Assembly: GCF_024171605.1 (NCBI RefSeq)
Contig: NZ_JALKAA010000004.1
Coordinates: 124,001-188,000, forward strand
From: Pontibacter sp. HSC-36F09
GTDB lineage: Bacteria > Bacteroidota > Bacteroidia > Cytophagales > Hymenobacteraceae
DNA: 64,000 bases
Direction of reading: 5' to 3'
In this document: one piece after another, positions 9,359 to 64,000 of the stretch
Layout: each line of letters starts with the position of its first letter
How positions within the stretch are numbered: the stretch's first letter is position 1
Translations under genes and position numbers: made by a program
Notes under the pieces: generated by a model
The model's database searches: none
What the model was told of the DNA's origin: nothing
Seen by the model: the letters and a program-made list of their open reading frames with translations, nothing else

Positions 9359-9368
9359 CAGAAAATCA

Positions 9369-9403
9369 AGCACTTATCTCGCAGAGAGGTAGGTGCTTTT
9401 TGT
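9369..9403 (+). terminator. Terminator behind the tRNA fragment
   Basis: AGCACTTATCTC (9369-9380) pairs with GAGGTAGGTGCT (9386-9397) with two G-U pairs, followed by TTTTTG. This was presumably the terminator of the original tRNA gene. Confidence 0.75.
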
Positions 9404-9607
9404 TTATAACCATTCCCTAGGATATATATGTTAGAGTTAGGTTAATATCCGAAAAGCTGCAAAACTTAGTTACTTTTCTCTAACTGCTACGTTTTTCCTC
9501 CGCTCTAATTCTCTGATAAAATGGATATCTACCTCAGTAATTAATGCACTGACATGACATCATAGTCTTGATCTCGACTCCGAATAATACCCCATACCCT
9601 GGCAAAA
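9404..9607. other. Intergenic region between attachment site and SusCD operon
   Basis: AT-rich, no gene or repeat recognised. Confidence 0.5.
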
Positions 9608-9640
9608 CAAACGCCGCCTCCTTTCGGAGAGCGGCGTTTG
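9608..9640 (-). terminator. Intrinsic terminator of the SusCD operon
   Basis: CAAACGCCGC (9608-9617) pairs perfectly with GCGGCGTTTG (9631-9640), extended by CTCC/GGAG; the minus-strand continuation is TTTTGCC. Confidence 0.85.
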
Positions 9641-9665
9641 CTAAACACTCAACTAAACAAACTTC

Positions 9666-11069: not shown

Positions 11070-11074
11070 CTTCC

Positions 11075-14299: not shown

Positions 14300-14412
14300 A
14301 ATTCAATAATTTGTTTTAAAAATAGTAAGGTTAGATCCGTTGAATATAGGGTATATTTAATTAATATAAAAGTAATATTGTCTTAACATAGTGCGTATTT
14401 GTGCAGGTATAA

Positions 14413-14455: not shown

Positions 14456-14477
14456 AGCTGTTAAAGGCTTATTTAGC

Positions 14478-17387: not shown

Positions 17388-18335
17388 AGTTTTTTCTAGT
17401 TGGCGTAAATGTGTTCTCTTCATATCTCCGGTCTTCCGTAATAATTGCTTCAGTAAAGGAAAAGCTAGTTTTTGAGTCCTGAAAATAGAATATACCAAGG
17501 CACCGCATTTCTATATGAATAGCCTAATATAGCCTATTAGCCTTTCGTCGGGAAATAGGGGAGGTTGGTGGAGGGAAAGGGGGGATGTAGGTATAGCTGC
17601 TGCAGATGTATGCATAGAATGTGGCTCTTTTCATAGCTTCTCTTCTACGGCAAGGCCTTAATGGCGCGAGTGTCTGCGCTCGTGTCTGCTATGGTGGGGC
17701 CTCAGGCCCAAGTATAGGTATAGTATACCACAAGTTTAGCAAAGGCGTAAATGTGGTTTTGCAGAAGGCCAGTTTGCAACTAGCGTAGTGTCTGTAGCAG
17801 GTATAGCATCCTGACTTGTTTTATAGTTTGCCCTGGCCGAGCGGGCCTTACTTGTTTCCTTGATGAAAAGAAAGAGGGCCCCTACCCCCAGTAAGCAAAA
17901 AAGTCAAGACCCTCCAAATTTGCTGAACGTTCAGACAGTGGAGTGTCGTAAAGTGCACTTGGCAAAGTGATCTGTTTCATAGCTGCAGGGGCAAGTTAGT
18001 CTTGCTATACCTGCCAGGGGGCTAGTTTTGCTACGATGCTATACCTGTAGAAGTGGCAGTAGCAGCAACTCCCCCTTCGAAGGGGGCAGGGGGATGTTAA
18101 TCGTGCACACGAAACCGCAGCTCCAACACCTATACCTGCAATTGAGTGGCTTCAGGAAATCCCCTCTTGAGAGGGGTGTGTTATAGCAACTGGTTAACCT
18201 TCCTTCAACCAAGATCCTTTCAGGATGACAGAGAGGAACTGGTATAGCCAAAGCTCCTTCCCCTGTTTTGGGGGTAGAGGCCCTCGACAAAAGGGGAAGG
18301 CTGGGATGGGGTAATTCGTATTGCGCAGCTACTAA
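17388..18335. other. Long intergenic region rich in short repeats
   Basis: No gene is convincing in 0.95 kb. It contains many AGGTATA/TATACCT words, an imperfect direct repeat around 17663-17690 (GTGTCTGC twice), paired G/C runs such as CCCCCTTCGAAGGGGG near 18069, CCCCTCTTGAGAGGGG near 18162, and the unit CAAGATCCTTTCAGGATGACA (18210-18230). These look like dispersed intergenic repeats of the genome. Confidence 0.55.
18209..18230. repeat. Dispersed short repeat, copy 1
   Basis: CCAAGATCCTTTCAGGATGAC recurs with one change at 28077-28097 (CCAAGATACTTTCAGGATGAC), both in gene-free DNA. Confidence 0.55.
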
Positions 18336-20019: not shown

Positions 20020-20070
20020 AGCAGACCCGCTGCAGGATCAGGTATAGCACCGCCCGGCAGCGGGTCTGCT
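20020..20070. repeat. Perfect 14-bp inverted repeat between the HPF gene and the SDR gene
   Basis: AGCAGACCCGCTGC (20020-20033) and GCAGCGGGTCTGCT (20057-20070), spacer 23 bases containing AGGTATAGC. No T-run follows, so it is a stable stem that is not a standard terminator; it may protect the mRNA 3' end. Confidence 0.7.
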
Positions 20071-20107: not shown

Positions 20108-20890
20108 ATGGCCACAGGGGATTACAAAGACAAAGTCGTGCTGGTAACTGGCGGTGCGCAAGGTATAGGCTTAGGTATAGCGCAGGCCTTCGGGCAGGCG
20201 GGTGCTTGGGTTGTGCTCACGGATGCAGACGAGGAAGCGGGAGGTGAAGCCTTGCAGCGTTTGCGGGACCAGCAACTGCGGGCTACCTTTATACCTGGCG
20301 ATGTAAGCGTTGAGCAGGAGGTCGTTGCCCTGATGGAAAAAGTGCAGGACAAACACGGCCGTCTGGATGTATTGGTAAATAACGCAGGTATAGCCGATCC
20401 TTTTGCTGGCAAGCTGGATGAATTGCTGATGTCGGATTTCGACCGGATGCTGGCTGTGAACCTGCGCGGACCAATGCTCTGCGCTAAATACGCCCTGCCG
20501 CTGTTGCGCAAAGCAAAACATCCTGCCATCCTTAACATCACGAGCACGCGCGCTTTCATGTCAGAGCCCGATACCTTTGCCTATTCAGCCTCCAAAGGCG
20601 GACTCGAGGCGCTCACGCATTCCCTGGCCGTTAGCCTGGCGCCGGATCGTATTCGGGTGAATGCCATCGCGCCAGGCTGGATTGAGACCGGGAACTGGCA
20701 AAAAGAAAAGGAGCGTTACGAACCGCAGCATACCCGCGAGGATAAGGAACAGCACCCGGTCGGTCGGGTGGGGGAGCCGCAGGACATTGCCGAAGCAGCG
20801 CTCTTTCTGTGTTCTGCGAAAGCTGGTTTTATTACGGGGCAACACTTGGTGGTAGACGGCGGTATGACCGTAAAGATGATCTATACCTGA
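20108..20890 (+). CDS. SDR-family oxidoreductase
   Basis: Classical short-chain dehydrogenase/reductase, 260 residues from the ATG at 20108 (a TTG 36 bases upstream is possible but less likely). The cofactor motif TGGAQGIGLG, the NNAG motif, an active-site Ser in NITSTRAF and Tyr-x-x-x-Lys in YSASK are all present, and a late GQHLVVDGG closes the fold. Substrate and cofactor preference are not evident. The glycine motif is encoded by two copies of the GGTATA word (20163 and 20175 region). Stands before the DsbA-like gene with a 52-base gap. Confidence 0.9.
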   Translation: MATGDYKDKVVLVTGGAQGIGLGIAQAFGQAGAWVVLTDADEEAGGEALQRLRDQQLRATFIPGDVSVEQEVVALMEKVQDKHGRLDVLVNNAGIADPFAGKLDELLMSDFDRMLAVNLRGPMLCAKYALPLLRKAKHPAILNITSTRAFMSEPDTFAYSASKGGLEALTHSLAVSLAPDRIRVNAIAPGWIETGNWQKEKERYEPQHTREDKEQHPVGRVGEPQDIAEAALFLCSAKAGFITGQHLVVDGGMTVKMIYT

Positions 20891-27687: not shown

Positions 27688-28076
27688 GGGTGGGATGAGA
27701 AGGGAAAGTACAGGTATAGCCAGTTCTTGCTATACCTTATCAAGCGTTGGAAGCAATAAGAAAGCCTGCATCAAACAGGGGAGTCAGTTCATTTCTACTA
27801 AAAACTATCCCCTTGAAAGGATTATAGGTATGTAGATTCGGTGCTAGAATGCTTATAGCTGGCAGTATTGGGATATCTTCACAGCTCTGAACACCCCTCT
27901 GAGAGCTACGCTCGCAAGTTTAGAGCTCCCGTTCTCACTTGTCCTCAAGGGGAGAATTCGCTAGAATTTAACGGCTCTGGCATGGAGCAGGGGAGTCTGG
28001 TCCTGTTTATCTGCTGCCGATCCGCTTGCAAATTGTAAAGAAATCTAGCAGAAGGTAGGGTCAATGCCGGGTGCTG

Positions 28077-30879: not shown

Positions 30880-33336
30880 TTAGTTGAGCAGGTATACGAC
30901 TTGCCAGTTGTCATTGATGGCCAGGGCCGCATCGAAACTGTTGCCGGTCTTGGCCGACGTAAAGCCTTTTATTTTACCGGTTTTACCTTTGGTGAGCAAA
31001 GTGCCGATCTGTTTATCGGTGAGTTGCTTGCCGCCCATTTCAAAAGGTACTACAAACTGACAGCCCTCCCGGAAGCGACTGCAGCCATACGCTTTGGATC
31101 CTTTGAGCATACTGCCTTGATTGCACCGTGGACAGGTCGCGAAAGGATCCACCTCCGGCGTTTTCACTGCTTTCTCCAGTACCACCTGCTTATTGCCATC
31201 CAGCTTCAGGCTGGCATCAAAACTATTGCCCTGTTCGTCTTTAAAACCTTTGATAACGGGCGTCTTTCCTTTGCCGAGTAGGGCTATAATCTGTTTATCG
31301 GTCAGGGTTTTGCCCTGCTGCTCAATCGGGATCAGAAAGCGGCAGCCTTCTTTATAGCGGATACAACCATAAGCTTTGGAGCCCTTCAGGATATGGCCTT
31401 CGTCGCAGGCGGGGCAGGCGCCAAGTCCTTTGACAGGTATAGCAGCCTCGGCAGAAGCTTTGGTTTTTTTAGTTGTAGCTTTTTCTTTTCCAGCTTTGGC
31501 AGATTCTCCTTTGGCTGGGGCAGGTTCCGGTTGGGCCTCCATGGTCACGGTGGCTTTGTCGTATTTCACTTCCTGCACCAGACTTACTACAAAGTCCTGT
31601 AATTCCTGCAAAAAAGCCTCCGCCTTAAAAGAACCACCTTCGATCTGACGCAGCTTGCGTTCCCACTGGCCGGTCATCTCCGCCGACTTCAGAGTCTGGT
31701 TACGGATTACCCCAATCAGGTCGATGCCCATTTGGGTAGGTATAATCTTCTTTTTGTCTTTGCGGATGTATTGGCGCTTGAACAGCGTTTCGATGATGGC
31801 GGCTCGGGTGGAAGGTCGGCCGATGCCGTTTTCTTTTAGTGCTTCCTTGAGCTCCTCATCGTCTATCTGGCGACCGGCTGTTTCCATAGCACGCAACAGG
31901 GTCGCTTCGGTGTACTCTTTCGGTGGATTCGTCCATTTCTTATCAAGCAAGGGCGCGTGCGGACCGTGTTCGCCTTTCTCGAAATTGGGCAGGATGCCAG
32001 CTGTTTCTTCCTCTTCTTTGTTGTCCTTGCCGGTGCTTTCGATTTTGATGTCTTCAGCACCATAGAGCACACGCCAGCCAGGCTCCAGAATTTGCTTGCC
32101 GCGCACCCGGAAGGTATAGCCCGCCGATTCTGCCGAAACTGTGGTGTTGCTCACGATACAGTCGGGATAAAAAGCGGCCAGAAAGCGGCGCGTGATGATG
32201 TCGTATACATCCGCCTCACGTCCGTACAGACTGGCTTGGGCACCGGTCGGTATAATGGCGTGGTGATCGGTTACTTTGTTGTTGTTGAATACCTTTTTGC
32301 TCTTGCGGATCTTACTCTGCAGCAAAGGCGCCACATCGTTCTGATAATTGGTGAGACCCTGCAGAATGCCCGGAATCTTTGGATAGATGTCATCTGGCAG
32401 GAACACGGTGTCCACACGCGGGTAAGAAACCACCTTTTTCTCGTAGAGGCTCTGGATGGTTTTGAGTGTTTCGTCGGCCGACATGCTCAGCTTGTTGTTA
32501 CACTCGATCTGCAGCGAGGTCAGGTCAAACAGCTTGGGCGGACTCTCAGTACCTTTCTTGGTCTCGATGTCGGTGATGGTGAGTTCAACCTGCTGGATGG
32601 CGGCTAGTATCTGCTGGCCTTCTTCCTCTTTGTGAAAACGGCCGTTGGTGCTCGAAAAAGTGGTGTCGCGGTATACGGTTTTGAGCTCCCAGTAAGCCTG
32701 CGGCACAAAGTTAGCGATCTCGTGGTGGCGGTTCACGATCATGGCAAGGGTAGGGGTCTGTACCCGTCCGATGGAGAGCGTCTGCCGGCCCTGCGCATAC
32801 TTGAGTGTGAAAAGCCGCGTGGCGTTCAGTCCAAGAAGCCAGTCGCCGATGGCGCGGCTTTTACCGGCCTGGTAGAGCGAGTCGAATTCGGACCCTTCGC
32901 GCAGCCGGGCAAAACCCTGACGGATGGCGTCTTCGGTGAGCGAGGAAATCCAGAGGCGCTTGAAGGGTTTGCGGTAATTGGCCTCGGTGAGTACCCAGCG
33001 CTGTATCACTTCCCCCTCTTGTCCGGCGTCACCGCAGTTGATCACTTCTTCGGCGTTGTCAAGGAGCTTTTTGATGATGTTGAACTGCTGCACCACGCCC
33101 TTGTCCTGCATCAGCTTGATGCCATACCTTTCCGGCAGCATAGGCAGATCGTAGAGGCTCCAGCGCTTCCATTCTGGGCGGTAGTCGTCGGGCTCACGCA
33201 AGGTGCAGAAGTGGCCGAAAGTCCAGGTGACCTGGTAGCCGTTGCCCTCGTAGTAGCCATCCTTTCTGGTTTTGGCACCAATCACGTTGGCTATTTCACG
33301 CGCGACACTCGGTTTCTCAGCAATGCAGACTTTCAA
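30880..33336 (-). CDS. topB: DNA topoisomerase III (type IA)
   Basis: Single-strand-passing type IA topoisomerase of 818 residues. The TOPRIM domain shows MKVCIAEKPSVAREI and the acidic triad region CGDAGQEGEVI. The catalytic tyrosine is in KVVSYPRVDT (about residue 315); most TopB have T in place of V after the arginine. GRVQTPTLAMIV and the hinge region follow. Two C-terminal zinc-ribbon 'Crpt' repeats (KGSKAYGCIRYKEGCRF and KGSKAYGCSRFREGCQF) end the protein. An Ala/Lys/Glu-rich linker (PAPAKGESAKAGKEKATTKK) separates them from the core. It appears to be a chromosomal copy, with no conjugation genes nearby. Confidence 0.95.
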   Translation of the reverse strand: MKVCIAEKPSVAREIANVIGAKTRKDGYYEGNGYQVTWTFGHFCTLREPDDYRPEWKRWSLYDLPMLPERYGIKLMQDKGVVQQFNIIKKLLDNAEEVINCGDAGQEGEVIQRWVLTEANYRKPFKRLWISSLTEDAIRQGFARLREGSEFDSLYQAGKSRAIGDWLLGLNATRLFTLKYAQGRQTLSIGRVQTPTLAMIVNRHHEIANFVPQAYWELKTVYRDTTFSSTNGRFHKEEEGQQILAAIQQVELTITDIETKKGTESPPKLFDLTSLQIECNNKLSMSADETLKTIQSLYEKKVVSYPRVDTVFLPDDIYPKIPGILQGLTNYQNDVAPLLQSKIRKSKKVFNNNKVTDHHAIIPTGAQASLYGREADVYDIITRRFLAAFYPDCIVSNTTVSAESAGYTFRVRGKQILEPGWRVLYGAEDIKIESTGKDNKEEEETAGILPNFEKGEHGPHAPLLDKKWTNPPKEYTEATLLRAMETAGRQIDDEELKEALKENGIGRPSTRAAIIETLFKRQYIRKDKKKIIPTQMGIDLIGVIRNQTLKSAEMTGQWERKLRQIEGGSFKAEAFLQELQDFVVSLVQEVKYDKATVTMEAQPEPAPAKGESAKAGKEKATTKKTKASAEAAIPVKGLGACPACDEGHILKGSKAYGCIRYKEGCRFLIPIEQQGKTLTDKQIIALLGKGKTPVIKGFKDEQGNSFDASLKLDGNKQVVLEKAVKTPEVDPFATCPRCNQGSMLKGSKAYGCSRFREGCQFVVPFEMGGKQLTDKQIGTLLTKGKTGKIKGFTSAKTGNSFDAALAINDNWQVVYLLN

Positions 33337-33368
33337 GGTATAGGGTGTTTTACGGTGACTCTAACATT

Positions 33369-33376
33369 CAAATTTA
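33369..33376 (-). promoter_or_regulatory. Possible -7 box (TAAATTTG on minus strand) before topB
   Basis: Exact TAnnTTTG on the minus strand 33 bases upstream of the topB ATG (33336). No clear -33 TTG is seen. Confidence 0.35.
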
Positions 33377-33448
33377 CGCTTTTAAGGTATAAATCCCTAC
33401 ACTTGCATTGCCGTAAATACATGCGTTGAACCCTAAGATATTGAAACC

Positions 33449-33670
33449 ATGCAGCCACTCGGGAAATACATTGTGATTATAGGTATAGCCATTGTAGTGA
33501 TTGGCCTGGTGTTCTGGCTGGCTGGCGACAAACTGGGCTGGTTTGGCAATCTGCCCGGCGATATTCGGGTGGAGCGGGAGAATTTCAAGTTCTTCATGCC
33601 CATCACCAGCATGATCCTGGTCAGCATTCTGCTCTCACTGCTGCTCTGGGTGTTCCGCCGGTTCTTTTAA
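33449..33670 (+). CDS. DUF2905 small membrane protein
   Basis: 73 residues with two membrane helices (YIVIIGIAIVVIGLVFWLAG and a C-terminal ITSMILVSILLSLLLWVF). The loop DKLGWFGNLPGDIRVERENF is the family signature of DUF2905. No function is known. Next gene begins 66 bases later on the same strand. Confidence 0.9.
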   Translation: MQPLGKYIVIIGIAIVVIGLVFWLAGDKLGWFGNLPGDIRVERENFKFFMPITSMILVSILLSLLLWVFRRFF

Positions 33671-33736
33671 GGTATAGCCTTTCAGAGGTGCAGCAGCTTT
33701 TATACCTTTGCGGCTTCTGCTATACCTGAAACCCCT

Positions 33737-34501
33737 ATGTTTTTTGTGCTCTCTAAGCTGCTGCAGTACTTCCTGATGCCCATTATTTGGATTGCACTAT
33801 TGCTCCTGCTGGCTGTTTTCCTACGATCACCTAAGTGGCGGCGCATCACTTTAATCTCTGCTACCGCGTTGCTGCTGGTTTTTTCCAATCCTTTTCTGGC
33901 GAATGTGGCCATGCGTGCCTGGGAATACGAGAGCGTGCCGCTGGAACAGGTGGAAAATTACGATGTAGCCATCATCCTGACAGGTGTGACCCAGGTCATC
34001 GGCTTCGCGGAAGACCGGGTACATACCAACAAAGGCGCCGACCGCTTCCTGCATCCGCTCAAACTTTACCGCCTGGGCAAAGTGGACAGATTTCTGATTA
34101 CAGGAGGTATAGGCACTGTTGCTTTGGACCGCCGACCGGAGGCCGAAATGCTGCAGGAGATTCTGTTACTGGCAGGCGTACCCCAGGAAGATATCCTGAT
34201 CGAGACTCGCAGCGATAACACCTACCAGAACGCCATCTTTACCGGCGATATGTTGCAGAAGCATCCGGAAATGAAACGCCGCCTGCTCGTGACCTCTGCC
34301 TTTCACATGCGCCGTTCCAAAGCCTGTTTCGACAAAGCAGGTATAGCCACCGACATTTTCCCAACCGACTTCTATACCTCCGAAATCCGCTATACTCCCG
34401 ACGAATTGCTCATACCTAACCCCGACGCCTTCCGGCTCTGGCATCGCCTTATTCACGAAGTAACGGGTTTTGTGGTTTATAAGGTGGTGGGGTATGCGTG
34501 A
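33737..34501 (+). CDS. YdcF/ElyC-type DUF218 membrane protein
   Basis: 254 residues. Two N-terminal hydrophobic helices (IIWIALLLLLAVFL and RITLISATALLLVFSN) anchor a DUF218 domain with NYDVAIILTG, RFLITGGIG and SAFHMRRSKACFDKAG. ElyC/SanA/YdcF proteins act in cell-envelope precursor control, but the enzyme activity is unsettled. The frame holds three AGGTATA/TATACCT words used as Gly-Ile or Ile-Pro-type codons. Follows DUF2905 with 66 bases, so perhaps cotranscribed. Confidence 0.88.
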   Translation: MFFVLSKLLQYFLMPIIWIALLLLLAVFLRSPKWRRITLISATALLLVFSNPFLANVAMRAWEYESVPLEQVENYDVAIILTGVTQVIGFAEDRVHTNKGADRFLHPLKLYRLGKVDRFLITGGIGTVALDRRPEAEMLQEILLLAGVPQEDILIETRSDNTYQNAIFTGDMLQKHPEMKRRLLVTSAFHMRRSKACFDKAGIATDIFPTDFYTSEIRYTPDELLIPNPDAFRLWHRLIHEVTGFVVYKVVGYA

Positions 34502-37501: not shown

Positions 37502-38566
37502 ATGCCTATACCTGTTAAATCGCTGAAGGCGCAGCAGCACCAGTTTGCCAACCCGGCTTTTCAACTGGAGGTGTTGCAGCATGCGGGAACGGAGGAAGGC
37601 GATTTCCCACTCTTCGGAGCCAAATTGCAACAGCATCAGCTATACCCTTTGCAACCCACGGGCACTACCATCTTGCAGGTGAACGTGGGCAAGATGTGCA
37701 ACCAGACCTGCCGCCACTGCCACGTAGACGCCGGTCCGGACCGCAAAGAGATCATGACCCGCGACACGATGCAGCTCTGCCTCGATGCCCTGGCCAAATC
37801 CCCGCAACTTACCACTGTTGATCTGACGGGCGGTGCGCCGGAAATGAACCCGGATTTTCGTTGGTTCGTGGAGCAGCTGTCAGCTATGGGTCGGCAAGTG
37901 ATTGTGCGCTGCAACCTCACGATCATTCTGGCCAATCCGAAGTACCACGACCTGCCGGAGTTTTTCAAGGCACATAGGGTGCAGGTGGTGTCTTCACTTC
38001 CTTATTTTTCGGCTTCCCGCACCGATGCCCAGCGTGGCGACGGCGTATTTGAGAAATCCATCAAGGCGCTTCAAATGCTCAAACAGGTAGGCTACGGACA
38101 GGAGGGAAGCGGCCTGGAACTCAATCTGGTTTACAATCCATCGGGGGCTTTTTTGCCTGCCAGTCAGAAATCGCTGGAGGCGGAGTTTAAGCGGCGGCTG
38201 AAGAGTGGCTACGATATTGTGTTCAACAACCTATTCTGCATCACCAACCTGCCCATCAGTCGCTACCTCGATTATCTGGTAGAAAGCGGCAACTACAGCA
38301 GCTACATGGGAAAGCTGGTAACAGCCTTTAACCCAGTTGCGGCAGCTAATGTGATGTGTCGCAACACGATTTCGGTGGGCTGGGACGGCGGCCTGTATGA
38401 CTGCGACTTTAACCAGATGCTCGAGCTGAAGGTACAGCCCGGCACTCCGCAGCACATACGTGATTTCGACCTGACGCAGCTTGACCAGCGGCAGATCGTG
38501 CTGAACCAGCACTGCTACGGTTGCACGGCCGGTGCCGGCTCCAGCTGCGGCGGCTCCACCACCTGA
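37502..38566 (+). CDS. arsS: Radical SAM protein ArsS (arsenosugar biosynthesis)
   Basis: 354-residue radical SAM enzyme. The iron-sulfur cluster motif C66-x3-C70-x2-C73 is in KMCNQTCRHCHVDAGPD, and DLTGGAPEMNP is the SAM-binding GGE-like loop. The C-terminus ends NQHCYGCTAGAGSSCGG, the marker of this family. ArsS transfers a 5'-deoxyadenosyl unit to dimethylarsenite. It starts 2 bases after the CMD gene. No arsM (arsenite methyltransferase), arsenate reductase or ArsR regulator is seen in the window, although ArsS needs a methylated arsenic substrate. Confidence 0.95.
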   Translation: MPIPVKSLKAQQHQFANPAFQLEVLQHAGTEEGDFPLFGAKLQQHQLYPLQPTGTTILQVNVGKMCNQTCRHCHVDAGPDRKEIMTRDTMQLCLDALAKSPQLTTVDLTGGAPEMNPDFRWFVEQLSAMGRQVIVRCNLTIILANPKYHDLPEFFKAHRVQVVSSLPYFSASRTDAQRGDGVFEKSIKALQMLKQVGYGQEGSGLELNLVYNPSGAFLPASQKSLEAEFKRRLKSGYDIVFNNLFCITNLPISRYLDYLVESGNYSSYMGKLVTAFNPVAAANVMCRNTISVGWDGGLYDCDFNQMLELKVQPGTPQHIRDFDLTQLDQRQIVLNQHCYGCTAGAGSSCGGSTT

Positions 38567-39693: not shown

Positions 39694-40860
39694 TTACTGT
39701 CCCAGCCGCGCTTCCTCCACTTTGTCGTACCCATAGATATCTTCCCGAAACTGGATGACTGAAAACTCATCGGCCCATGCCGTCAAGTACACGATGATCA
39801 GGGGCACAGGCTTTTTGAGCCGGATGAATTGCTCGTCCTTGTCAGAGGCCAGCACCTTTTCAATGCGCTTGTCCGATAAGCCGCTCCGCTCTTGCAGCAG
39901 GTATAGCGCCAGGTCCTCGGGGTTTTGTAAACGGATGCAGCCATGGCTCAAGGCCCGCCGCTCGAGTGCGAACAGCTGCCTGTCCTTGGTGTCGTGCAGG
40001 TACTGACTCACGCGGGTGTCGAAGAGGAACTTTATGTGTCCCAGTTCGTTATGCGGCCCGGTGACCTGCACGATCCGGTAATTGAAATTAGCGGCCGTTA
40101 CAGTGCGCCAGTCCACGCTCCAGGGGCTTATCTTTTGCCACCCGCCCAGCGGCTTAGGCCGGAAAAGCTCCATGTCCCGTTTGGCCAGGTAGCCGGGGTT
40201 TCGTTTGAGGATAGGCAAAATCTCTTTGGAGGCAATAGAGTTTGGGATGTACCAATACGGGTTGAAAACGATGGTATGTAGCCTGGTATGGTTGACGATG
40301 GTTGGGACGTTCGGCTTGCCCACAATAGTGCGCATGTTTAGTAAGACACTGTTCCGGTCGATCAGCCGTAAGGTATAGTCCGGTATGTTCACGATGAGGT
40401 AGGGCTGTGGCAGGTCGCGGCTGAAAGCTTCCCAGCGGTAAAGGCTATTCTGCAGCTGGTGCAGTCGCTGCAGGGGCGGAATGTTGAGCGCAGCCACGGT
40501 GCGTGGCCCCACGATACTGTCGGCTTTGAGCGCATGCCTTGCCTGAAACCGCACGACGGCTGTTGCCAGCTGGCGGGTATAATACGTTGTACTTTCGGTG
40601 GTATCGGCACTTGCCAGGTCGCCGGTCAGCAGCAGGTTGGCGCGCAGATACGGGGTATAGCGGCTCGTGTCGCCGGGGCGGAGGAGCAGCTTGCCAGGGA
40701 AGGTATACCAGGTGCTGTCTTTTAACCCCTCGTACTGCGCAATGGCCTGGCGGAGTTGCTGTTTCTGATCCTGCACAAACAGCCATACCTCCGTAGAATC
40801 GCTGGCTATACCTGGAAATGCGTATAGGAACAGCAGGATCGGAAGGAACAGGCGTGCCAT
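39694..40860 (-). CDS. L,D-transpeptidase (YkuD) with peptidoglycan-binding domain
   Basis: Periplasmic cell-wall crosslinking enzyme, 388 residues from the ATG at 40860 (signal peptide MARLFLPILLFLYAFPGIASD). A peptidoglycan-binding helical domain (AVVRFQARHALKADSIVGPRTVAALN) precedes the YkuD fold with the catalytic SHGCIRLQNPEDLA. The layout is like the YcbB-type enzymes of Gram-negative bacteria. Starts 3 bases after the TIGR04282 stop in the opposite strand (convergent). Confidence 0.92.
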   Translation of the reverse strand: MARLFLPILLFLYAFPGIASDSTEVWLFVQDQKQQLRQAIAQYEGLKDSTWYTFPGKLLLRPGDTSRYTPYLRANLLLTGDLASADTTESTTYYTRQLATAVVRFQARHALKADSIVGPRTVAALNIPPLQRLHQLQNSLYRWEAFSRDLPQPYLIVNIPDYTLRLIDRNSVLLNMRTIVGKPNVPTIVNHTRLHTIVFNPYWYIPNSIASKEILPILKRNPGYLAKRDMELFRPKPLGGWQKISPWSVDWRTVTAANFNYRIVQVTGPHNELGHIKFLFDTRVSQYLHDTKDRQLFALERRALSHGCIRLQNPEDLALYLLQERSGLSDKRIEKVLASDKDEQFIRLKKPVPLIIVYLTAWADEFSVIQFREDIYGYDKVEEARLGQ

Positions 40861-43098: not shown

Positions 43099-44457
43099 TC
43101 ACTGTGGTTGCGCCACACTTTGCCGGGGCAAGTTGGCGTGCTTCTTCTGCTGTCGGTACAGGTATAGCTCAGCTAAAAGCCACAGTCCGACCAAGGTATA
43201 CTCCAGCGCTACAAGCCAGAGGTTTTCGGTATAGTCGCTGGTGCGGTAGGCGGAGTAGCTGAAAATAGCCAGGCAGCTCCAGACGGTGGCGTAACGGAAA
43301 TGGCTCAGAGTGGTGAGGGCAACCAGGGTGGTGATGTACCAGGGGTGTACCGTGGTGGCCAGCAGCAGGTATACGGTAAGTGCTGCCGCCATGTAACCGG
43401 CCAGTCTGCGCACGGAGCCCAGTTTCTTCACCGCCGCCATCGACAAAATAACGATCAGTGCTGCCAGCGAGAGCAGCGGCCCGATCACGGCAATCTGGTT
43501 ATAGCCTGTCAACTGGTAGCCCAGCCAGCGGAGCAGGTAGTAGATACTGGCATTGAACTCAAACCGCTGAAAATACAGGTCAATGCTTTGCCAGATGTTG
43601 CGCAGCACCTCCAGCGAAAGCAGCGGCATAAAAAGCAGCAATAAAACAATTGTCATCACTACTCCGAAGCCGATAAAACGCTTCAGGCCAAGCTTGCGCC
43701 ATACAAAAGGCAGGAACATCAGCGGCAATAGTTTACTGGCAATGGCCAAAGCAAACGGCACCGCTGCAATAAGATACCGCTGAAAGTGTAATTGATAGAG
43801 AGTGAGCAGCAGGAAAAAAATCAACAGCGCCTCCATGTGCAGGTTGCCCGTCAACTCAAGTATCACCAACGGGTTGAGGGCGTAAATGTGCACGTAGCGG
43901 TCGGGCAGGGCCATGCGGCGCAGGAGGCGCAGTAAAAGCAGGATAGAGCCTGTTTCGGCAATCAGAATAATAAGCCGCATCATGAGCATACTCCCCGTCA
44001 GGCTTTCAGGGGAAAGCGCCGCTGCCAGCCAGAACACACCCTGCAGTACCGGCGGGTATAAGGTATAGTAGTTCGGTGAATTAAGCTGCGCAAACAGTTC
44101 AGCCGTGAGGCCAGGTATAGCCATTGCCTCTTCGCCCACAAACTGCGAAGGCAGGTATAGGAAGGGGTTTTCACCGGCCAGCAATAGTCTCCCGTCCCAC
44201 ACAAAACGGAAATAATCGTCGGACAGCGCAGGTATAGCAAACAAAAATAATAACCTGAAAAACAGACCGGCCCCGATGCCATGCCATACGTTCAGTTTCT
44301 GGTTCGTGACATAGGCATAGATGCCAAAAGCCAGTAAAGTGAGCAGAAGCAATTGTGTGAAGTTCTCGCGTGGCGTCGCATAGCCCAGTGCCAGGTATAC
44401 CAGGGCCGATATTCCCAGCAAGGTATAAGTTGCTATGTGCTTTCGGGCGAGGCTCAT
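43099..44457 (-). CDS. GT-C-type polytopic glycosyltransferase (mannosyltransferase-like)
   Basis: 452 residues with about 12 membrane helices. The first periplasmic loop carries SDDYFRFVWDGRLLLAGENPFLY, with the acidic pair of GT-C enzymes that use polyprenyl-phosphate sugars (compare alpha-1,6-mannosyltransferase families). It ends the three-gene operon and overlaps the preceding GT2 gene by 4 bases. Donor and acceptor are unknown. Confidence 0.8.
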   Translation of the reverse strand: MSLARKHIATYTLLGISALVYLALGYATPRENFTQLLLLTLLAFGIYAYVTNQKLNVWHGIGAGLFFRLLFLFAIPALSDDYFRFVWDGRLLLAGENPFLYLPSQFVGEEAMAIPGLTAELFAQLNSPNYYTLYPPVLQGVFWLAAALSPESLTGSMLMMRLIILIAETGSILLLLRLLRRMALPDRYVHIYALNPLVILELTGNLHMEALLIFFLLLTLYQLHFQRYLIAAVPFALAIASKLLPLMFLPFVWRKLGLKRFIGFGVVMTIVLLLLFMPLLSLEVLRNIWQSIDLYFQRFEFNASIYYLLRWLGYQLTGYNQIAVIGPLLSLAALIVILSMAAVKKLGSVRRLAGYMAAALTVYLLLATTVHPWYITTLVALTTLSHFRYATVWSCLAIFSYSAYRTSDYTENLWLVALEYTLVGLWLLAELYLYRQQKKHANLPRQSVAQPQ

Positions 44458-45935
44458 GCGCGGCGGCTGTGGTTGAGCGAGTATACGAAAACGGAGCCAA
44501 AACCGAGCATCAGCATTATATGGAACGGCATCAGACCGTAATCCTGCAACTGAAACCCCACCAAAATACCGTACCCGAAATAAACTGTGAGTAACCCTTC
44601 CAGCAAAGTTACCGGATGCAGGCTGGTGATGGTGTAGGCGTGCTGGCGCCAGGAGTCGAGGCGGTTTTGCAAATTGTGCTTAGGTGTTCGGATAAAAGGT
44701 GTTTTCCGGCCCAGGTAGCCCTCCAGTACCGCTACCGTATTGTGCAGCGACATCCCCATCGAAAGTGACAGGAACAGGAAAAACTCAGGTATAAAGCGCC
44801 GGGTGGTGAGCCATGCCGAACCCGTTTGCTGATAACGGGATGTCCAGTAAAAAACCAGCAAAGCCAGCAGACTAACGATCAGCAGGGAGCCCAGTGCAAA
44901 AAGTAGTTCGAGTCCCGGCACACTGTGTTTCAGGTACAGCATCGGTATGCTGAGCAGGGCTGTGAGCAACACGCAGACAAAAATACCGCTGTTGAGCAGG
45001 TGAAAAATAGCGTGTAGTCGGGTAGAAAAGGGCATGGGTGCTACGAGCACTTTGCCCAGATGTTTGCGGGCAGTTTCGGCAGCGCCTTTAGTCCAGCGGT
45101 ACTGTTGCGACTTGAGCGCACCCATGGCGGCAGGCAATTCGGCGGGAGCATTCACATCCTGCAGGTAACGGAATCGCCAGCCCCGCAACTGGGCGCGGTA
45201 ACTCAGGTCCAGGTCTTCGGTCAGCGTATCGGACTGCCAGCCGCCGGCGTCTTCGATGCAGCTTTTTCGCCATACCCCGGCCGTGCCGTTGAAGTTGATA
45301 AAGTGTCCGCCGCTGTTACGCCCAACCTGCTCTATCGTAAAGTGTGCATCCAGCCCAAAAGCCTGCAGCCGGGTCAGCAGCGAGTAGTTCTGGTTCAGGT
45401 GACCCCAGCGGGTTTGCACCACGCCCACCTGCTCCTGATCAAATGCAGGTATAGTGCGCTTCAGAAAGTCAGGGTTTGGGACGAAATCGGCATCGAAAAT
45501 AGCAATGAACTCTCCCGTAGCTTGCTGCAAACCATACTGCAGGGCACCCGCTTTGTAGCCACTTCGGTCAGGACGACGCACGTGCTCCAGGCGCAGGCAG
45601 GTGCTGGCATACCTATCAATCTTTTGCCGGATCAATTCGCTCGTATCATCAGTGGAGTCATCGAGCAGCTGGATCTGCAGCAGGTGGCGGGGGTAGTCGA
45701 GGGCGGCCACGGCATCGATCAGGCGCTCCACCACATAGCGTTCGTTGTAAAGCGGGAGTTGTACCGTTACCGCAGGCCAGGTATAGCTGTCGTCAGGTAT
45801 AGCCTCCGGAGCAGGCATTGTCTTCCGGCGGGTCCAGAAAAGGTAAGTGAGGTGCAGTTGCACCAGGCTGTAGCAGAAGATAAAGGCCAGACAAAGACCA
45901 TACACGGCAACAAGAAGAAGCTGAGGGATTGTCAT
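44454..45935 (-). CDS. Cellulose-synthase-like family 2 glycosyltransferase
   Basis: 493 residues. One membrane helix at the N-terminus, then a GT-A domain with VQLPLYNER, LLDDSTDDT, IAIFDADFVPNP (DAD donor site), LTEDLDLSYR (TED base) and QQYRWTKG, and four or five C-terminal helices. This is the processive or single-addition CESA-like type. Operon position between a DPM1-type GT2 and a GT-C enzyme suggests a lipid-linked sugar pathway. Confidence 0.9.
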   Translation of the reverse strand: MTIPQLLLVAVYGLCLAFIFCYSLVQLHLTYLFWTRRKTMPAPEAIPDDSYTWPAVTVQLPLYNERYVVERLIDAVAALDYPRHLLQIQLLDDSTDDTSELIRQKIDRYASTCLRLEHVRRPDRSGYKAGALQYGLQQATGEFIAIFDADFVPNPDFLKRTIPAFDQEQVGVVQTRWGHLNQNYSLLTRLQAFGLDAHFTIEQVGRNSGGHFINFNGTAGVWRKSCIEDAGGWQSDTLTEDLDLSYRAQLRGWRFRYLQDVNAPAELPAAMGALKSQQYRWTKGAAETARKHLGKVLVAPMPFSTRLHAIFHLLNSGIFVCVLLTALLSIPMLYLKHSVPGLELLFALGSLLIVSLLALLVFYWTSRYQQTGSAWLTTRRFIPEFFLFLSLSMGMSLHNTVAVLEGYLGRKTPFIRTPKHNLQNRLDSWRQHAYTITSLHPVTLLEGLLTVYFGYGILVGFQLQDYGLMPFHIMLMLGFGSVFVYSLNHSRRA

Positions 45936-46647: not shown

Positions 46648-46700
46648 GCTGCAAATTTGGGCAAAAAAAATATGCGAAGCTATGAAGGATCAGGTATAGC

Positions 46701-47947: not shown

Positions 47948-48080
47948 TGAGGTGAAATTTGAATGTAATGGTGAATTGTTCCTTGTATCAGGTATAGCTA
48001 TACCTACTGGTAAGAGTCGTTTTGGAGGCAAAGCGTTGCAAGCAGGTATAAAAATAAATGTTGTAACTTTTTTCAGAGAC

Positions 48081-49258: not shown

Positions 49259-50656
49259 TTACTTAATCTGAGGAAGCTTGTATCGGTGTAAAATCCGGTT
49301 CAGGATTTCCGTGAGGTAGCCTCCGCTTTGCGGCCCGTAGAAGTTCATGGACCGGGTTTCATACTTCTTCAATGCATAGTGTTGGTCGGGCGTAATATAC
49401 CCGATGTAGCCGCCATTGAACCCGGTCAGGACCACAGGCTGACCTTGCCGCTCGAGCTGGGGTAGAAGTTCACCAGAGTAATCAGCCGGAACGCCCAGCA
49501 GCAGCACCTCGCCCAACTGCAGACTATTGATATAAGTAGGGTATTTGCCAAACAGCCAGTTAAACAGGAAAGGGGCAAAGCGATAGCTCGTATTCAGACG
49601 CCACTGCGGCTTGGGCAGCAGCAATGAATGCCGGGCATAGCCGAGGCGGGCCGTGTGGGTTAGTTCAACCGCCGGGAGCTTCTCCAGTAGGGCGGCTGCC
49701 AGTTCATTCCCCACAGCAGCTGTGCTCTCATGCGTATCGCCATGCGGTGCCACCACAGCCTGACTCCCGACAGCACCGGCCGCAAAAGCGGCAAAGTCCA
49801 CGCTTTTTTCCAGCTCGTCCACCAATTCTCCCGGATAGTCCCGCGAAAGTACCGGATCCATAGACGGGAGGATGGAGGGATGTGCAGCAAAGGTGGTCAG
49901 GACAGCCGTTTTACCGGAAGCCTGCACTATTTTAAAGAACCGTATAGTTGTATCTCTGCCTGCCAAAGAACCTGTCAGGCGATTGCGAACCAGGTGAGGG
50001 GCATAAGCTGTACCATACCCGATTTGGGAGGGCTGCTTGTTTTGCCGGGCTAGCTGTATACTTTGTACGATACGGGCGGTGGTCTGCTGCACCAGCTGCT
50101 TGCTATACCTGCCCGCCATGAGTCTTCCCACCAGTTTCTGCCCCCAGCCCCCGAAACTGCTATGCGTATGAGTCGCGCTCAGGTATACCTGACCAGGACT
50201 CAAGTCTAACGCGGCATACTCCTTTTCCAGCGCAGCAGCAACCGTCATGGGGGCAATGAGCATATCGAGTGCGACGAAAATGACTTCTGCTTGGCCGTTG
50301 TCAAAAGCGAATGTGCGAACCCACACCGAGTCATGCACGGCGCTATACCTGAGTCCTTTGCGTTTGCCGTAGCCTGCCAACGGACTACCCACAGGAGGCG
50401 TGATGTTTACTTTAGCCCAGCCAACCTGCAGCGAATCGGTTTTACTTGTAACTGGAGGCTGCTTTTCGAGCTCTTGCAAGGTATGGCGGTAGTAGTCGGT
50501 CTGTGCATACGGCGTGTGGTCGATGCGCTGCACCACACAGCTCTGCATCGTGCAAAGCAGCAGACTGAGCAGCGCCCACAGGCAGAATGAATTATGTTTC
50601 CGGAATCTCAAGCCTGCGAAGGTATAAAAATATTTAGCAAACAGTGTGACAGCCAA
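49259..50656 (-). CDS. Neutral/alkaline ceramidase-like lipoprotein, TTG start likely
   Basis: 465 residues related to the N-terminal domain of neutral ceramidase (PF04734): VGWAKVNITPPVGSPLAGYG, FVALDMLIAP, SATHTHSSFGGWG (zinc and catalytic Ser region) and a late LLLGVPADYSGE. The N-terminus is hydrophobic with a possible lipidation Cys in LLLCTMQSC. No ATG is in frame before that point; TTG at 50656 is the most upstream option, and the true start remains uncertain. Substrate is not proven; sphingolipids occur in Bacteroidota. Confidence 0.78.
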   Translation of the reverse strand: MAVTLFAKYFYTFAGLRFRKHNSFCLWALLSLLLCTMQSCVVQRIDHTPYAQTDYYRHTLQELEKQPPVTSKTDSLQVGWAKVNITPPVGSPLAGYGKRKGLRYSAVHDSVWVRTFAFDNGQAEVIFVALDMLIAPMTVAAALEKEYAALDLSPGQVYLSATHTHSSFGGWGQKLVGRLMAGRYSKQLVQQTTARIVQSIQLARQNKQPSQIGYGTAYAPHLVRNRLTGSLAGRDTTIRFFKIVQASGKTAVLTTFAAHPSILPSMDPVLSRDYPGELVDELEKSVDFAAFAAGAVGSQAVVAPHGDTHESTAAVGNELAAALLEKLPAVELTHTARLGYARHSLLLPKPQWRLNTSYRFAPFLFNWLFGKYPTYINSLQLGEVLLLGVPADYSGELLPQLERQGQPVVLTGFNGGYIGYITPDQHYALKKYETRSMNFYGPQSGGYLTEILNRILHRYKLPQIK

Positions 50657-53101: not shown

Positions 53102-53121
53102 GCTATACCTGACTCAGGCAT

Positions 53122-54052: not shown

Positions 54053-54088
54053 AAGCAGGTATGGCTCGGGCTATACCTGCTTTTTTTT
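54053..54088 (+). terminator. Intrinsic terminator containing the AGGTATA-like word
   Basis: AAGCAGGTATGGC (54053-54065), loop TCGG, GCTATACCTGCTT (54070-54082), then a T-run. The right arm has TATACCT; the left pairs with one G-U. Confidence 0.9.
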
Positions 54089-54161
54089 GTGCTATACCTG
54101 AATTACATATTGCGAACTATTGCTTTATTTGCATATCAGAATGTATGATAATGCCCTGAAG

Positions 54162-57245: not shown

Positions 57246-57273
57246 AAAACTAGAATACAATTAGTTGCTATAC

Positions 57274-57313
57274 CTGAACGGGCCGGTCTGCAGATCGGCC
57301 CGTTCAGTTTTCT
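57274..57313 (+). terminator. Intrinsic terminator of the GIN/LEA14-like operon
   Basis: CTGAACGGGCCG (57274-57285) with CGGCCCGTTCAG (57296-57307), then TTTTCT. Confidence 0.9.
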
Positions 57314-59644: not shown

Positions 59645-59708
59645 GCCGCGCTATACCTCCCTGTTTCGGGTACACGAACCTACATCACCCGCCTTACCGT
59701 AGACAAAA

Positions 59709-59742
59709 AGCCGGATCAGCTGTCAGTATGCTGCATCCGGCT
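59709..59742. repeat. Hairpin between barrel gene and SDR gene
   Basis: AGCCGGATCAGC (59709-59720) with GCTG-C-ATCCGGCT (59730-59742, one bulged base). No T-run follows, so termination is only possible. Confidence 0.6.
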
Positions 59743-59765
59743 ATACCTGTTATACCTACAATTCT

Positions 59766-60785: not shown

Positions 60786-60846
60786 CCCGAACTTTAACCT
60801 ATACCTGATGGCAGGCTATACCCTGGCTTTGCCTATATTCGCCCTT

Positions 60847-61359: not shown

Positions 61360-61378
61360 TTCCTACTGTAGTGGAATA

Positions 61379-61418
61379 AAAAAGCGTCAGCCATCCTTTA
61401 GGGTAGCTGACGCTTTTT
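61379..61418. terminator. Bidirectional terminator between NUDIX and msrA
   Basis: AAAAAGCGTCAGC (61379-61391) with GCTGACGCTTTTT (61406-61418), 14-base loop; T-runs on both strands. Confidence 0.9.
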
Positions 61419-61431
61419 ATTTTGTATCGAC

Positions 61432-61974
61432 TTATTTGGCCGCTCCGGGTTTCAGTTTGTCTGCAAATACTTTTCTGAACTTATCAACTTTAGGCCGGAT
61501 CACAAAGCTGCAATAAGGCTCGTGGCCGTGAGTGTTGAAGTAATTCTGATGATAGTCTTCGGCCGGGTAGAACTCTTGCAGCGGCTCTACTGTCGTCACG
61601 ATCGGAGCATCAAAGGCACCGGACGCATCAAGTTCTTTCAGGTATTTTTCGGCTTTTTCGCGCTGCTCATCATTGTGGTAGAGCACGATGGAGCGGTACT
61701 GCGGCCCGATGTCGTTGCCCTGTCTGTTCAGCGTGGTCGGGTCGTGGGTTTCCCAAAAAACTTCCAAGAGCTCATCGTAGCTAATAGCATCCGGGTCGTA
61801 GGTGATTTGCAGCACTTCGGCGTGGCCGGTGGTGCCGGAGGTGACTTGCTTATAGGTTGGGTTCTCCATGTGCCCGCCCGCATAGCCTGATTCTACTTTT
61901 TGTACGCCGGCCAAATCCTGAAACACTGCTTCGGTACACCAGAAGCATCCTCCTCCAAATGTCGCTTTTTCCAT
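61432..61974 (-). CDS. msrA: Peptide methionine (S)-S-oxide reductase
   Basis: 180 residues from the ATG at 61974. Catalytic C10 in GGGCFWCTEAVF, with the family stretches GYAGGHMENPTY, HAEVLQITYDP and YHQNYF. No MsrB domain is fused. Repairs oxidised methionine using thioredoxin. Single gene, shares the terminator with the NUDIX gene. Confidence 0.95.
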   Translation of the reverse strand: MEKATFGGGCFWCTEAVFQDLAGVQKVESGYAGGHMENPTYKQVTSGTTGHAEVLQITYDPDAISYDELLEVFWETHDPTTLNRQGNDIGPQYRSIVLYHNDEQREKAEKYLKELDASGAFDAPIVTTVEPLQEFYPAEDYHQNYFNTHGHEPYCSFVIRPKVDKFRKVFADKLKPGAAK

Positions 61975-62071
61975 TTTTTTCGCTTTAATGTAGGTATAGG
62001 CCGTCAACCAAAAGCCTGTGGCTATACCTGTGCAAAGGTATAGGGACTAAACCAAAAAGTCCTCCAATTGT

Positions 62072-62770
62072 TTAATTACGCATATTGCGCATTGTACTCT
62101 GGGCGTCGGCGGCTCCTTCTAAAGTTAGGTACTCAGCTTGTAAAGCTCTGATTTTTAGCTTATCAGTGTTCGAGATCTGGTTCTCTACCTGACCACGTCG
62201 CTGATTCAGTTGCCCGTAAACATTATCTACGTAGTCCCAGTCATGTTGCGTCCAGTTGCGGCGCTTGGCCCGAATCACACCCATAAAGGTCAGGTACGCC
62301 TCTCGCATGTCCTGTGGTGCAATGTTTTCAATTTCTTTGAATTCGCGGAGCAACTGCTCTTCCCACTGTTCCAGCTCGGCACGGTCGAGTGGCGTGTTCA
62401 GGCGTCTTTCCTGTCGGTTCTCCCAGCGTTCGTAGCGTTCCTTCAGTCGGGCGTATTCCGCTTTTGATTCGGCGGAGAGGCTGTCCAGGTTCTGCTCAAT
62501 TTCAGCAGATCGCACCCGGAAATCTTCTTTGATCCCCGGCATTTCACGCTGTATAGCCGTGTCGCCTCGTTCCACTTTCTCGTTCATCCAGCCCCGCAAT
62601 GACTCTAGCCGCTCGCCTACGGTGCGGCCCGTTTGCTCCACTCGGGCAGTGTCGGCGGGTACATCCACGGTTATTTCTTCAGTCTCCTGTGCGGTGCGGT
62701 TGCCTTCGCAGCTCCAGAGGAGCAGGGCTGTCAGGAAGCCAAGCAGGTATGTTGTTCTAATGTTGAGCAT
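62072..62770 (-). CDS. Coiled-coil lipoprotein, 232 aa
   Basis: Lipobox LLLWSC (C21). The mature protein is highly charged and helical with heptad-like patterns (ESLRGWMNEKVERGDTAIQR, EYARLKERYERWENRQERR). No known domain. Perhaps a periplasmic stress or structural protein; nothing in the neighbourhood tells its partner. Confidence 0.65.
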   Translation of the reverse strand: MLNIRTTYLLGFLTALLLWSCEGNRTAQETEEITVDVPADTARVEQTGRTVGERLESLRGWMNEKVERGDTAIQREMPGIKEDFRVRSAEIEQNLDSLSAESKAEYARLKERYERWENRQERRLNTPLDRAELEQWEEQLLREFKEIENIAPQDMREAYLTFMGVIRAKRRNWTQHDWDYVDNVYGQLNQRRGQVENQISNTDKLKIRALQAEYLTLEGAADAQSTMRNMRN

Positions 62771-62855
62771 TTATTTTTCAAAGTTTTAGGGTTGCTGTTT
62801 TTAGGCGATGCCCATACTTGCCATCATACGCAAAGCAATCTTACAAGATACTTAT

Positions 62856-64000
62856 TTAAGGGCTCACGGCCAGTAATGGTTTGTCTTTGCTGATGCCATG
62901 GCCGTACTGGTAGTGCTCGTTTACAGTAACGGGCAGCTTGCCGCGGGCAGGTATTTTGCCGAACAAGAGTTTGGCCGCCGCCACCTGCGCATGCATGTGT
63001 GCCTGATAAGCCAGTATCAGCACACGGCTCTTGTGGATGTCCGGGAACTGATTCAAGGTATAAGGGTTGTCAAAGAGCGTCATAATGGACCTGTCCGAGC
63101 GCGCCAGGTCAGTCACCAGCCCTACTGCCTCTTTGGAGTAGCCCAGCCGGTTGCTTGGCGTGACAGCTGGCCCGTAAAGTCCCACCAGCACCAGGTCATA
63201 CCCTTTGAGCTTCTGCTTCATTTGCTTTACTTCTTTGGCATTGGCCTTCCGGGATAGCGCAAAATTGGCCTCGATGCGGGCATACTTGTTTATTTCGCGC
63301 TGGAATATGCTGGGGCGTACCACGCCAAAAGATAGTGTGGCGATGCGCCTTCGCTTTTTTTGGCGGATGGGTAGAAAATTCTTTTTGTTATTAAGAAGAG
63401 TCATGGCTGCTTCGGCCAGCGCATGGTTGGTGCTGTCGGCTATACCTGGGTTCAGGTCTTCGTACAGGTTCTCCAGCTCAATGGGCTTATACCTGTCCAG
63501 CCCCACCCAGGCCTTGGCGGCCAGCATCTTTTTACAGCGGCGGTCAATTTCTTCCTGCGTGATATACCCCAGGGCAATCGCCTGCTCGATGGCCTGAATG
63601 GCTTTGGGGACACTGTTGAGGCGCTCCAGCACATCGTTACCCGCGATCAGGGCGCGTGCCTCCGCCTCTCCGGGAGGGAAGTACTTGGTTACGCCCTTCA
63701 TGACCATGGCATCCGTGAAGACCAGGCCCTTGAATTCCAGCTTTTTCTTGAGGAGGTTGGTCACGATGGGCTTGGATAGGGTGGAGGGCAGGTTCATGGT
63801 CGTGTCGAGTTCGGGCATGTGCATGTGTGCCACCATGATGCCCCCGATGCCATGCTTGATCAGCTCGCGGAAAGGATATAGCTCCAGCGAGTCGAGCCGG
63901 TCGCGGTCATGCGGAATGATGGGCAGGTCGTAGTGAGAGTCTACATCCGTGTCGCCGTGGCCGGGGAAGTGCTTGGCTACTGCAATGATGCCGTTTTCCT
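62856..64000 (-). CDS. Glycoside hydrolase family 3 (NagZ-like), 5' end outside window
   Basis: The frame continues from the ATG at 63836 without a stop to the window edge, so the listed start is missing. The visible part has KHFPGHGDTDVDSHYDLP, the GH3 signature, then MVAHMHMPELD, catalytic D in FTDAMVMKGV and the GH3 C-terminal domain (NKKNFLPIRQKKRRR). It ends at 62856 without a beta-lactamase-like extension in view. Likely beta-N-acetylglucosaminidase in wall recycling or glycan breakdown. Confidence 0.9.
   Translation of the reverse strand, partial: ENGIIAVAKHFPGHGDTDVDSHYDLPIIPHDRDRLDSLELYPFRELIKHGIGGIMVAHMHMPELDTTMNLPSTLSKPIVTNLLKKKLEFKGLVFTDAMVMKGVTKYFPPGEAEARALIAGNDVLERLNSVPKAIQAIEQAIALGYITQEEIDRRCKKMLAAKAWVGLDRYKPIELENLYEDLNPGIADSTNHALAEAAMTLLNNKKNFLPIRQKKRRRIATLSFGVVRPSIFQREINKYARIEANFALSRKANAKEVKQMKQKLKGYDLVLVGLYGPAVTPSNRLGYSKEAVGLVTDLARSDRSIMTLFDNPYTLNQFPDIHKSRVLILAYQAHMHAQVAAAKLLFGKIPARGKLPVTVNEHYQYGHGISKDKPLLAVSP

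Follow-up and report, generated by a model that had tools for sequence, protein, structure and literature searches.

The window studied here is a stretch of 64,000 nucleotides from Pontibacter sp. HSC-36F09 (contig NZ_JALKAA010000004.1), most of which is densely covered by a short word, AGGTATA or its complement TATACCT. Two parts can be discerned. Positions 1..9360 are an integrated island in which word counts lie below expectation; this low-GC part carries genes for a type I restriction subunit R of the EcoAI family, a DUF3987 protein and a tyrosine integrase. Positions 9361..64000 form a word-rich chromosomal stretch, to which 122 of the 128 copies in the window belong (74 AGGTATA and 54 TATACCT in the window as a whole). 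Measured against a third-order Markov model of this stretch, AGGTATA is the most enriched 7-mer (122 versus 23.2 expected), AGGTATAG the best 8-mer (73 copies, read as AGGTATAG or CTATACCT, versus 5.7) and CAGGTATAGC the best 10-mer (27 versus 0.8). An earlier note on this DNA had claimed a very high density outside the island and had named a lack of third-order enrichment as one outcome that would speak against it; the counts bear the claim out.

The full word CAGGTATAGC occurs within topB at 31434..31443 on the plus strand, where it is further found at 17798..17807, 20039..20048, 20385..20394, 27711..27720, 34338..34347, 39898..39907, 43159..43168, 44112..44121, 44229..44238 and 46691..46700, as two copies in the same orientation 16 bp apart (45778..45803) and, at 47989..48005, overlapping a facing, inverted AGGTATAG at 8 bp. 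The minus strand has it at 18004..18013, 18038..18047, 33719..33728, 40805..40814, 50102..50111, 50342..50351, 53102..53111, 54070..54079, 54091..54100 (21 bp from the preceding one), 57267..57276, 59740..59749 and 63439..63448, and an inverted pair 14 bp apart, with CAGGTATAGC on the minus and AGGTATAG on the plus strand, lies at 62021..62043. The nine copies of the 7-mer to which the earlier note had drawn attention (33336..34379, running from the start of topB through the adjacent gap into a DUF218 gene) are all real, with AGGTATA at 33336, 33385, 33481, 33670, 34105 and 34339 and TATACCT at 33701, 33721 and 34373. The cluster as such is not special, as it is one of 8 separate places with at least nine copies per 1,044 bp (maximum 13) in 454 kb of the host genome, a sample that combines 20 stretches (400 kb) with the window minus the island. 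Proteins of the window point to Bacteroidota. The closest named relatives of the topB of the window are from Pontibacter species (94-96% identity), and an arsS-type radical SAM gene (arsenosugar biosynthesis family) is present at 37502-38566.

The abundance extends to the whole host genome of 4.43 Mb, in which CAGGTATAGC was counted 748 times forward and 704 times in reverse (1,452 together), compared to 6 and 2 (8 together) for the reversed pattern as a control. Copies are present inside genes and in the gaps, and the strands are about balanced. Within the 454-kb sample AGGTATAG is 34-fold over second-order expectation. Most single-base variants of its core remain near 1-fold under the same model; partly tolerated are G at base 1 (7.1), A at base 2 (3.4) and G at base 7 (4.8), as well as A (9.9) or C (8.5) at the last base, and C is favoured directly before and directly after the word. 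The placement follows coding tolerance. Using a crude gene caller that labelled 80% of the sample as coding, the density was 0.90 per kb in genes versus 2.40 per kb between genes. Every stop-free reading frame is used, with 2 copies in the frame that contains a stop, and there are 325 coding copies, whereas 40 synonymous-codon shuffles of these genes gave 11 on average (29-fold).

To specify the phylogenetic range, counts were made in 150 family members' genomes, 50 from the genus itself (host included) and 100 from five other Hymenobacteraceae genera. Between 559 and 1,472 copies of CAGGTATAGC were found in 12 of the 50 Pontibacter genomes, again with the host included, compared to 19-134 in the other 38. 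The earlier note had considered an equal level in unrelated genera as a possible refutation; the 100 genomes of the five other genera held only 2-19 copies. In a class-wide draw of 247 genomes (host included) all others had at most 31, and a few of these were mildly enriched, such as G188 with 31 versus 2 in the control.

Most Pontibacter genomes possess this or a related word. When k-mers were counted in ten further genomes of the genus, using 40 kb from each, the sister words AAGTATAA and AACTATAG were recovered, and three of the ten had none of these words. We refer to the three spellings as the AGG (AGGTATAG), AAG (AAGTATAA) and AAC (AACTATAG) dialects. Over whole genomes, AAGTATAAA reached 1,062-4,337 copies in 23 of the 50 and at most 572 in the other 27. 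AACTATAGY, for which sites reading the full palindrome AACTATAGTT count on both strands, reached 614-6,359 copies in 8 of the 50, four of which also had more than 1,000 copies of AAGTATAAA. Taken together, a word is in force in 39 of the 50 genomes, with little or none in 11 (G002, G013, G028, G075, G097, G109, G113, G115, G125, G127 and G131). Some of the word-weak genomes showed a mild excess, like G131 with 572 AAGTATAAA versus 92 in the control. A weak excess of GCCATATAT was observed in the word-free G002 (14 versus 2 expected in 40 kb, stretches L029 and L030), which could be another word. In general, the word can be described as a sharp 8- to 10-mer that occurs hundreds to thousands of times per genome, on either strand, and the preferred forms of which are non-palindromic.

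The dialects were mapped onto a tree of 52 TopB proteins, using labels derived from loci of about 12-22 kb per species. The AGG users form one clade (support 100/100) and the AAC users another (88/81), located beside a species that carries both words. The AAG users are scattered over the genus and include early branches, the order of which the tree leaves unresolved. To place the word-free label on this tree takes 4 changes, 2 of which are forced by well-supported branches. The simplest reading would be that AAG was ancestral and was followed by two shifts and more than one loss.

The homologous topB regions allow individual sites to be followed. Among 11 species of the AGG clade, 312 of 466 word cells were identical, compared to 136 of 645 for composition-shuffled words (shared sites are taken from both genomes of a pair in this two-way count, for word and control alike); counted as distinct sites, 50 of the 67 host sites were identical in at least one AGG relative. 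Across dialects, AACTATAG was read at 6 of 56 host sites in the AAC genomes and at none of those aligned to AAG (51 sites), word-free (30) or AGG genomes (67). By cells this amounts to 13 of 76 ungapped, whereas the same two-base change at other 8-mers of the region occurred in 5 of 6,351. The evidence is weaker for the AAG spelling, which was present at 10 of 51 host sites in AAG genomes, compared to 0 of 30 in the word-free ones (p 0.011). These counts indicate that some sites are inherited and carry the local spelling, and that most were turned over.

The word is gained mainly by substitution. A spread of short inserted copies, through micro-transposition or templated insertion, would fit the excess of close pairs, among which direct ones predominate in the host sample (57 of the 77 pairs no more than 60 bp apart) and 13 of which, at exactly 6 bp, represent slippage arrays. 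Gaps, however, touch only 14 of the 466 word cells versus 30 of the 645 control cells in the 11 AGG species, and copies occupy all stop-free reading frames, which makes such insertion highly improbable as the source of the word. Intergenic tandem arrays with a 6-bp period (AGGTATAGGTATAG...) were observed at L019:16147 and L020:1071 of the host genome and look slippage-like.

The orientation of the copies bears on functions connected to replication and recombination. Chi sites are short, frequent and located within genes; they are also polar and usually stable across a genus. Leading and lagging strands were assigned from the GC skew of each stretch. In the host 282 copies fell on the leading and 270 on the lagging strand (p 0.64), so no bias was seen. 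In 400 kb of G085, a single-contig genome of the AAC dialect, where AACTATAG is 53-fold enriched with palindromic places counted twice, the division was 572 versus 514 (p 0.08), again without a clear bias; when the palindromic places are removed it becomes 471 versus 413 (p 0.055), and a slight leading-strand excess is possible. An internal recombination, repair or strand-exchange enzyme that starts or stops at the word, as a Chi-like site or a conversion hotspot with no role in uptake, could profit from the latter figure. Moreover, gene conversion that favours the word would produce the same accumulation, turnover and dialect shifts, and a copy number of about one per kb fits as well. Given the absence of leading-strand bias in the host, its lack of clarity in G085, and the occurrence of several dialects and clearly word-free genomes within one genus, we regard such a drive as unlikely, though it deserves to be taken seriously. 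Among the functions listed in the earlier note, the Chi- and partition-like ones are thus disfavoured for want of clear polarity, an uptake-like one is favoured, and methylation found no support in the one class of methyltransferases that was searched.

That last possibility has a parallel in the highly iterated palindrome HIP1 of cyanobacteria, another abundant word, which PMC4390886 links to solitary methyltransferases. The cores of the AAC and ACC forms are indeed palindromic (CTATAG and CCTAGG), and 101 places of AACTATAG in the 400 kb of G085 read the full palindrome AACTATAGTT. The full preferred words, on the other hand, are not their own reverse complement, and PF01555 (N6/N4 methyltransferase), the one family tested, does not follow the word: it is missing in 13 of the 39 word-bearing and 6 of the 11 word-free or weak genomes, and is absent from G119 and G085 though each holds more than 5,000 AACTATAGY. 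Judged by the word forms and this one family, a methylation-linked word appears quite improbable.

Recently acquired DNA is poor in the word. At the density outside the island, 20.9 copies of AGGTATA would be expected in positions 1-9,360 and 6 were present (p 0.0006); for AGGTATAG there were 4 versus 12.5 expected (p 0.015). Pieces of the window of 24 kb and 15 kb gave no similarity match to phages and plasmids. A plasmid could be analyzed in Pontibacter actiniarum (G073), contig 2 of which matches plasmid NZ_CP021236.1 at all three of the AACTATAGY places listed. In this plasmid of 204 kb (200 kb counted) AAGTATAA occurs 1.6 times per 10 kb (4.1-fold), whereas a 60-kb sample of the chromosome has it 5.3 times per 10 kb (17.6-fold), and the plasmid is thus poorer (p 3e-6). 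A scarcity in newly acquired DNA like that of the DNA uptake sequence (DUS) and the uptake signal sequence (USS) was therefore found in one island and one plasmid. An abundant chromosomal DNA-binding protein, for instance a nucleoid organiser or segregation factor, might also read the word and keep it by selection at each site, in line with the strong conservation within the AGG clade and the even spread on both strands. Thousands of sites and the 29-fold coding excess would then need selection at every one of them, and neither the depletion on the plasmid nor the absence of the word in separate lineages is expected for an essential organiser; we consider this explanation improbable.

Hyperabundant words are also present elsewhere in the family. 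In a survey of 20-kb stretches outside the genus, 40 at first and 20 more later (those shorter than 6 kb, 5 of the first and 1 of the later set, were skipped), the only strong words that repeated in a second stretch or genome were ACCTAGGG and RGGGTAGG. Two others, ACCGTTAC in G158 and ACTGTTAC in G191, were strong in one stretch and did not repeat. CTACACC was mildly enriched in three of the surveyed stretches, and three Rufibacter stretches (L085, L087 and L103) showed an excess of ACTCACT/CACTCAC, which may be simple repeats. Of the 8 genomes of genus g4, 3 hold 2,808-3,106 copies of ACCTAGGG, against 1-5 of the controls, and three of the 66 genomes of genus g5, which is probably Hymenobacter, hold 2,643, 896 and 337. 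For RGGGTAGG, 1,468-5,231 copies (controls 171-280) were counted in 8 of the 66 g5 genomes and 644-830 in three more; elsewhere in the 150-genome draw it reached 109-541, often somewhat above the controls. The words AAGTATAA, AGGTATAG, AACTATAG and ACCTAGGG all fit the frame xxS-TA-(TA or GG)-R, which was fitted after the fact, and GGGTAGG fits its first part, the next base in G053 being G or C. On the basis of this post hoc frame we infer that one recogniser family may read all these words.

Considering the sharp and abundant consensus, the dialects with an invariant core, the local spelling at inherited sites, the placement governed by coding tolerance and the scarcity in foreign DNA, all of which recall the uptake words of Neisseria and Haemophilus, we favour, with some reserve, the reading that AGGTATAG(C) serves Pontibacter as a self-recognition word of the DNA-uptake type, the mechanism of which would be as follows. 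A surface or periplasmic DNA-binding protein, belonging to a competence machine that lacks type IV pili, would prefer word-bearing DNA. Fragments that carry the word would be taken up and recombined more often, and the word would spread by biased gene conversion wherever the encoded protein tolerates it. A shift in receptor specificity would result in words being gradually replaced or re-spelled, and when the receptor is lost or relaxed the words would decay. The wider proposal, which may well hold but which we make only tentatively, is that of an uptake-word system of Hymenobacteraceae, outside the Proteobacteria and without type IV pili, whose putative receptor shifted repeatedly (AAG to AGG, AAG to AAC, and to ACCTAGGG and GGGTAGG), with thousands of sites replaced or re-spelled each time.

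What is known of the competence genes fits this proposal in part. Riemerella anatipestifer, another member of the Bacteroidota, is described as requiring both ComEC and a triple helix-hairpin-helix protein for transformation, next to parts unlike those of known machines (PMC8459023). ComEC was found in all 50 Pontibacter genomes, its frame being interrupted by a stop in G089 and G046. Open frames of the triple helix-hairpin-helix type (304-346 aa; 319 aa in the host) were present in 49 of the 50, G089 having short pieces only. The presence of both makes a pilus-free competence machine in Pontibacter plausible by analogy. The genes beside the helix-hairpin-helix gene in the host look unrelated. 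In G089 the frames of both genes are broken (L251, G089:C1:2769501-2773500; L252, G089:C1:2077301-2079700); this genome also has the lowest word density among those with AAG only (1,270 AAGTATAAA in 5.5 Mb), and, as a single case, is possibly a natural competence loss mutant. The comEC match of G046 (G046:C76:160505-161305) is interrupted by a single in-frame TAG; this genome, assembled in 100 contigs, keeps 1,456 CAGGTATAGC, and the stop may be a recent loss or a sequence error.

Several observations weigh against an uptake function. No recogniser of the word came out of the searches made. With PF00437, the type IV pilus/type II secretion ATPase, the 50 Pontibacter genomes gave fragments only (~40-65 of 370 positions, three of them just above the cut-off), while the positive control matched 14 of 14 genomes and the pilins themselves were not sought; as nothing beyond these fragments was present, any receptor would have to belong to a different class of protein. 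In each of the 11 genomes with little or no word, ComEC has an open frame of 707-736 aa, so that the competence genes do not separate these from the others, which implies either a difference in specificity rather than in competence as a whole, or no link to competence. The neighbourhood of comEC, compared between 11 word-bearing and 9 word-free genomes, contained no neighbour specific to the word-bearers. DUF5689 (PF18942) was set aside as a receptor, being present in 22 of the 50 and absent from the host and most word-bearers: its short form (413-450 aa) occurs in 12 genomes, all word-bearing, and is absent from 27 of the 39 word-bearers, and its long form (about 1,100-1,300 aa) in 10, including 5 of the word-free or weak genomes. 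We found no report of natural transformation in Pontibacter in the open-access literature, in which one paper, on LexA (PMC8565304), mentions Pontibacter or Hymenobacter together with natural transformation. The behaviour of the word itself adds further points. The spelling AAGTATAA/G is also present at 9 of 67 sites among the AGG relatives, which makes the evidence from the AAG spelling weak and has slightly lowered our confidence, and from one dialect to another 80-90% of the homologous sites are not retained. Inverted pairs resembling terminators appear to be few, unlike in Neisseria, where they are common: of the 17 inverted pairs (8-40 bp) in the 454-kb host sample, 5 have a T run (background 13.5%), as have 5 of the 37 in G085. 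Finally, the strands of RGGGTAGG are uneven in several genomes, for example 2,951 versus 2,273 in G053.

Two side observations concern the same loci. A 341-aa gene near comEC was seen in 8 of 9 word-free versus 2 of 11 word-bearing stretches, which may reflect gene order only. Six of the short-form DUF5689 loci seem to lie beside nutrient-uptake-like genes, judging from the N-termini and sizes of the neighbours.

To our knowledge, uptake words with dialects have been known from only two groups of Proteobacteria, in each of which they are linked to type IV pili. For Pontibacter, Hymenobacter or Bacteroidetes, a search of the open-access literature returned no paper describing an uptake word or a hyperabundant one, by which novelty is not proven. 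If the uptake function is right, the Pontibacter word would be the third such case, in Bacteroidota that lack these pili, and self-DNA recognition would have arisen independently. It would offer a handle on the outer-membrane step of transformation in the phylum, and the several dialect shifts, together with the mixed and word-free species, would allow receptor and word to be followed as they change together. It would also caution that a 'repeat' of this kind may be neither a mobile element nor a regulatory motif.

The comparison with known systems can be made on several levels. Chi and KOPS (FtsK orienting polar sequences) differ from the Pontibacter word, which has no clear replication polarity and changes its spelling within the genus. 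HIP1 (GCGATCGC) is likewise a short word iterated throughout the genome; it is a palindrome tied to methyltransferases according to PMC4390886, whereas the preferred Pontibacter word is non-palindromic. The USS of the Pasteurellaceae is an abundant short word linked with competence, and differs in being an unrelated word in another phylum, with a type IV minor pilin recently predicted as its receptor (PMC12616744). Similar in behaviour is the DUS of the Neisseriaceae, with thousands of copies of a short word, dialects that follow phylogeny, a more permissive placement between genes and an invariant core, CTG in the DUS and TA in the Pontibacter word (PMC3630211). Reading of the DUS involves the type IV minor pilin ComP (PMC3868556, PMC12061091, PMC3630211), whereas Pontibacter has fragments only of the pilus ATPase and apparently few terminator-like pairs. 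We do not class the word as DUS or USS, because the pilus-based machine of those systems was sought and not found. The term 'uptake sequence' does not occur in the main text of the Riemerella paper (PMC8459023), and DUF5689, the one outer part of the Riemerella machinery that was sought, is absent from most word-bearing Pontibacter. Two other proteins of that machinery, ComEC and the triple helix-hairpin-helix protein, have counterparts in Pontibacter.

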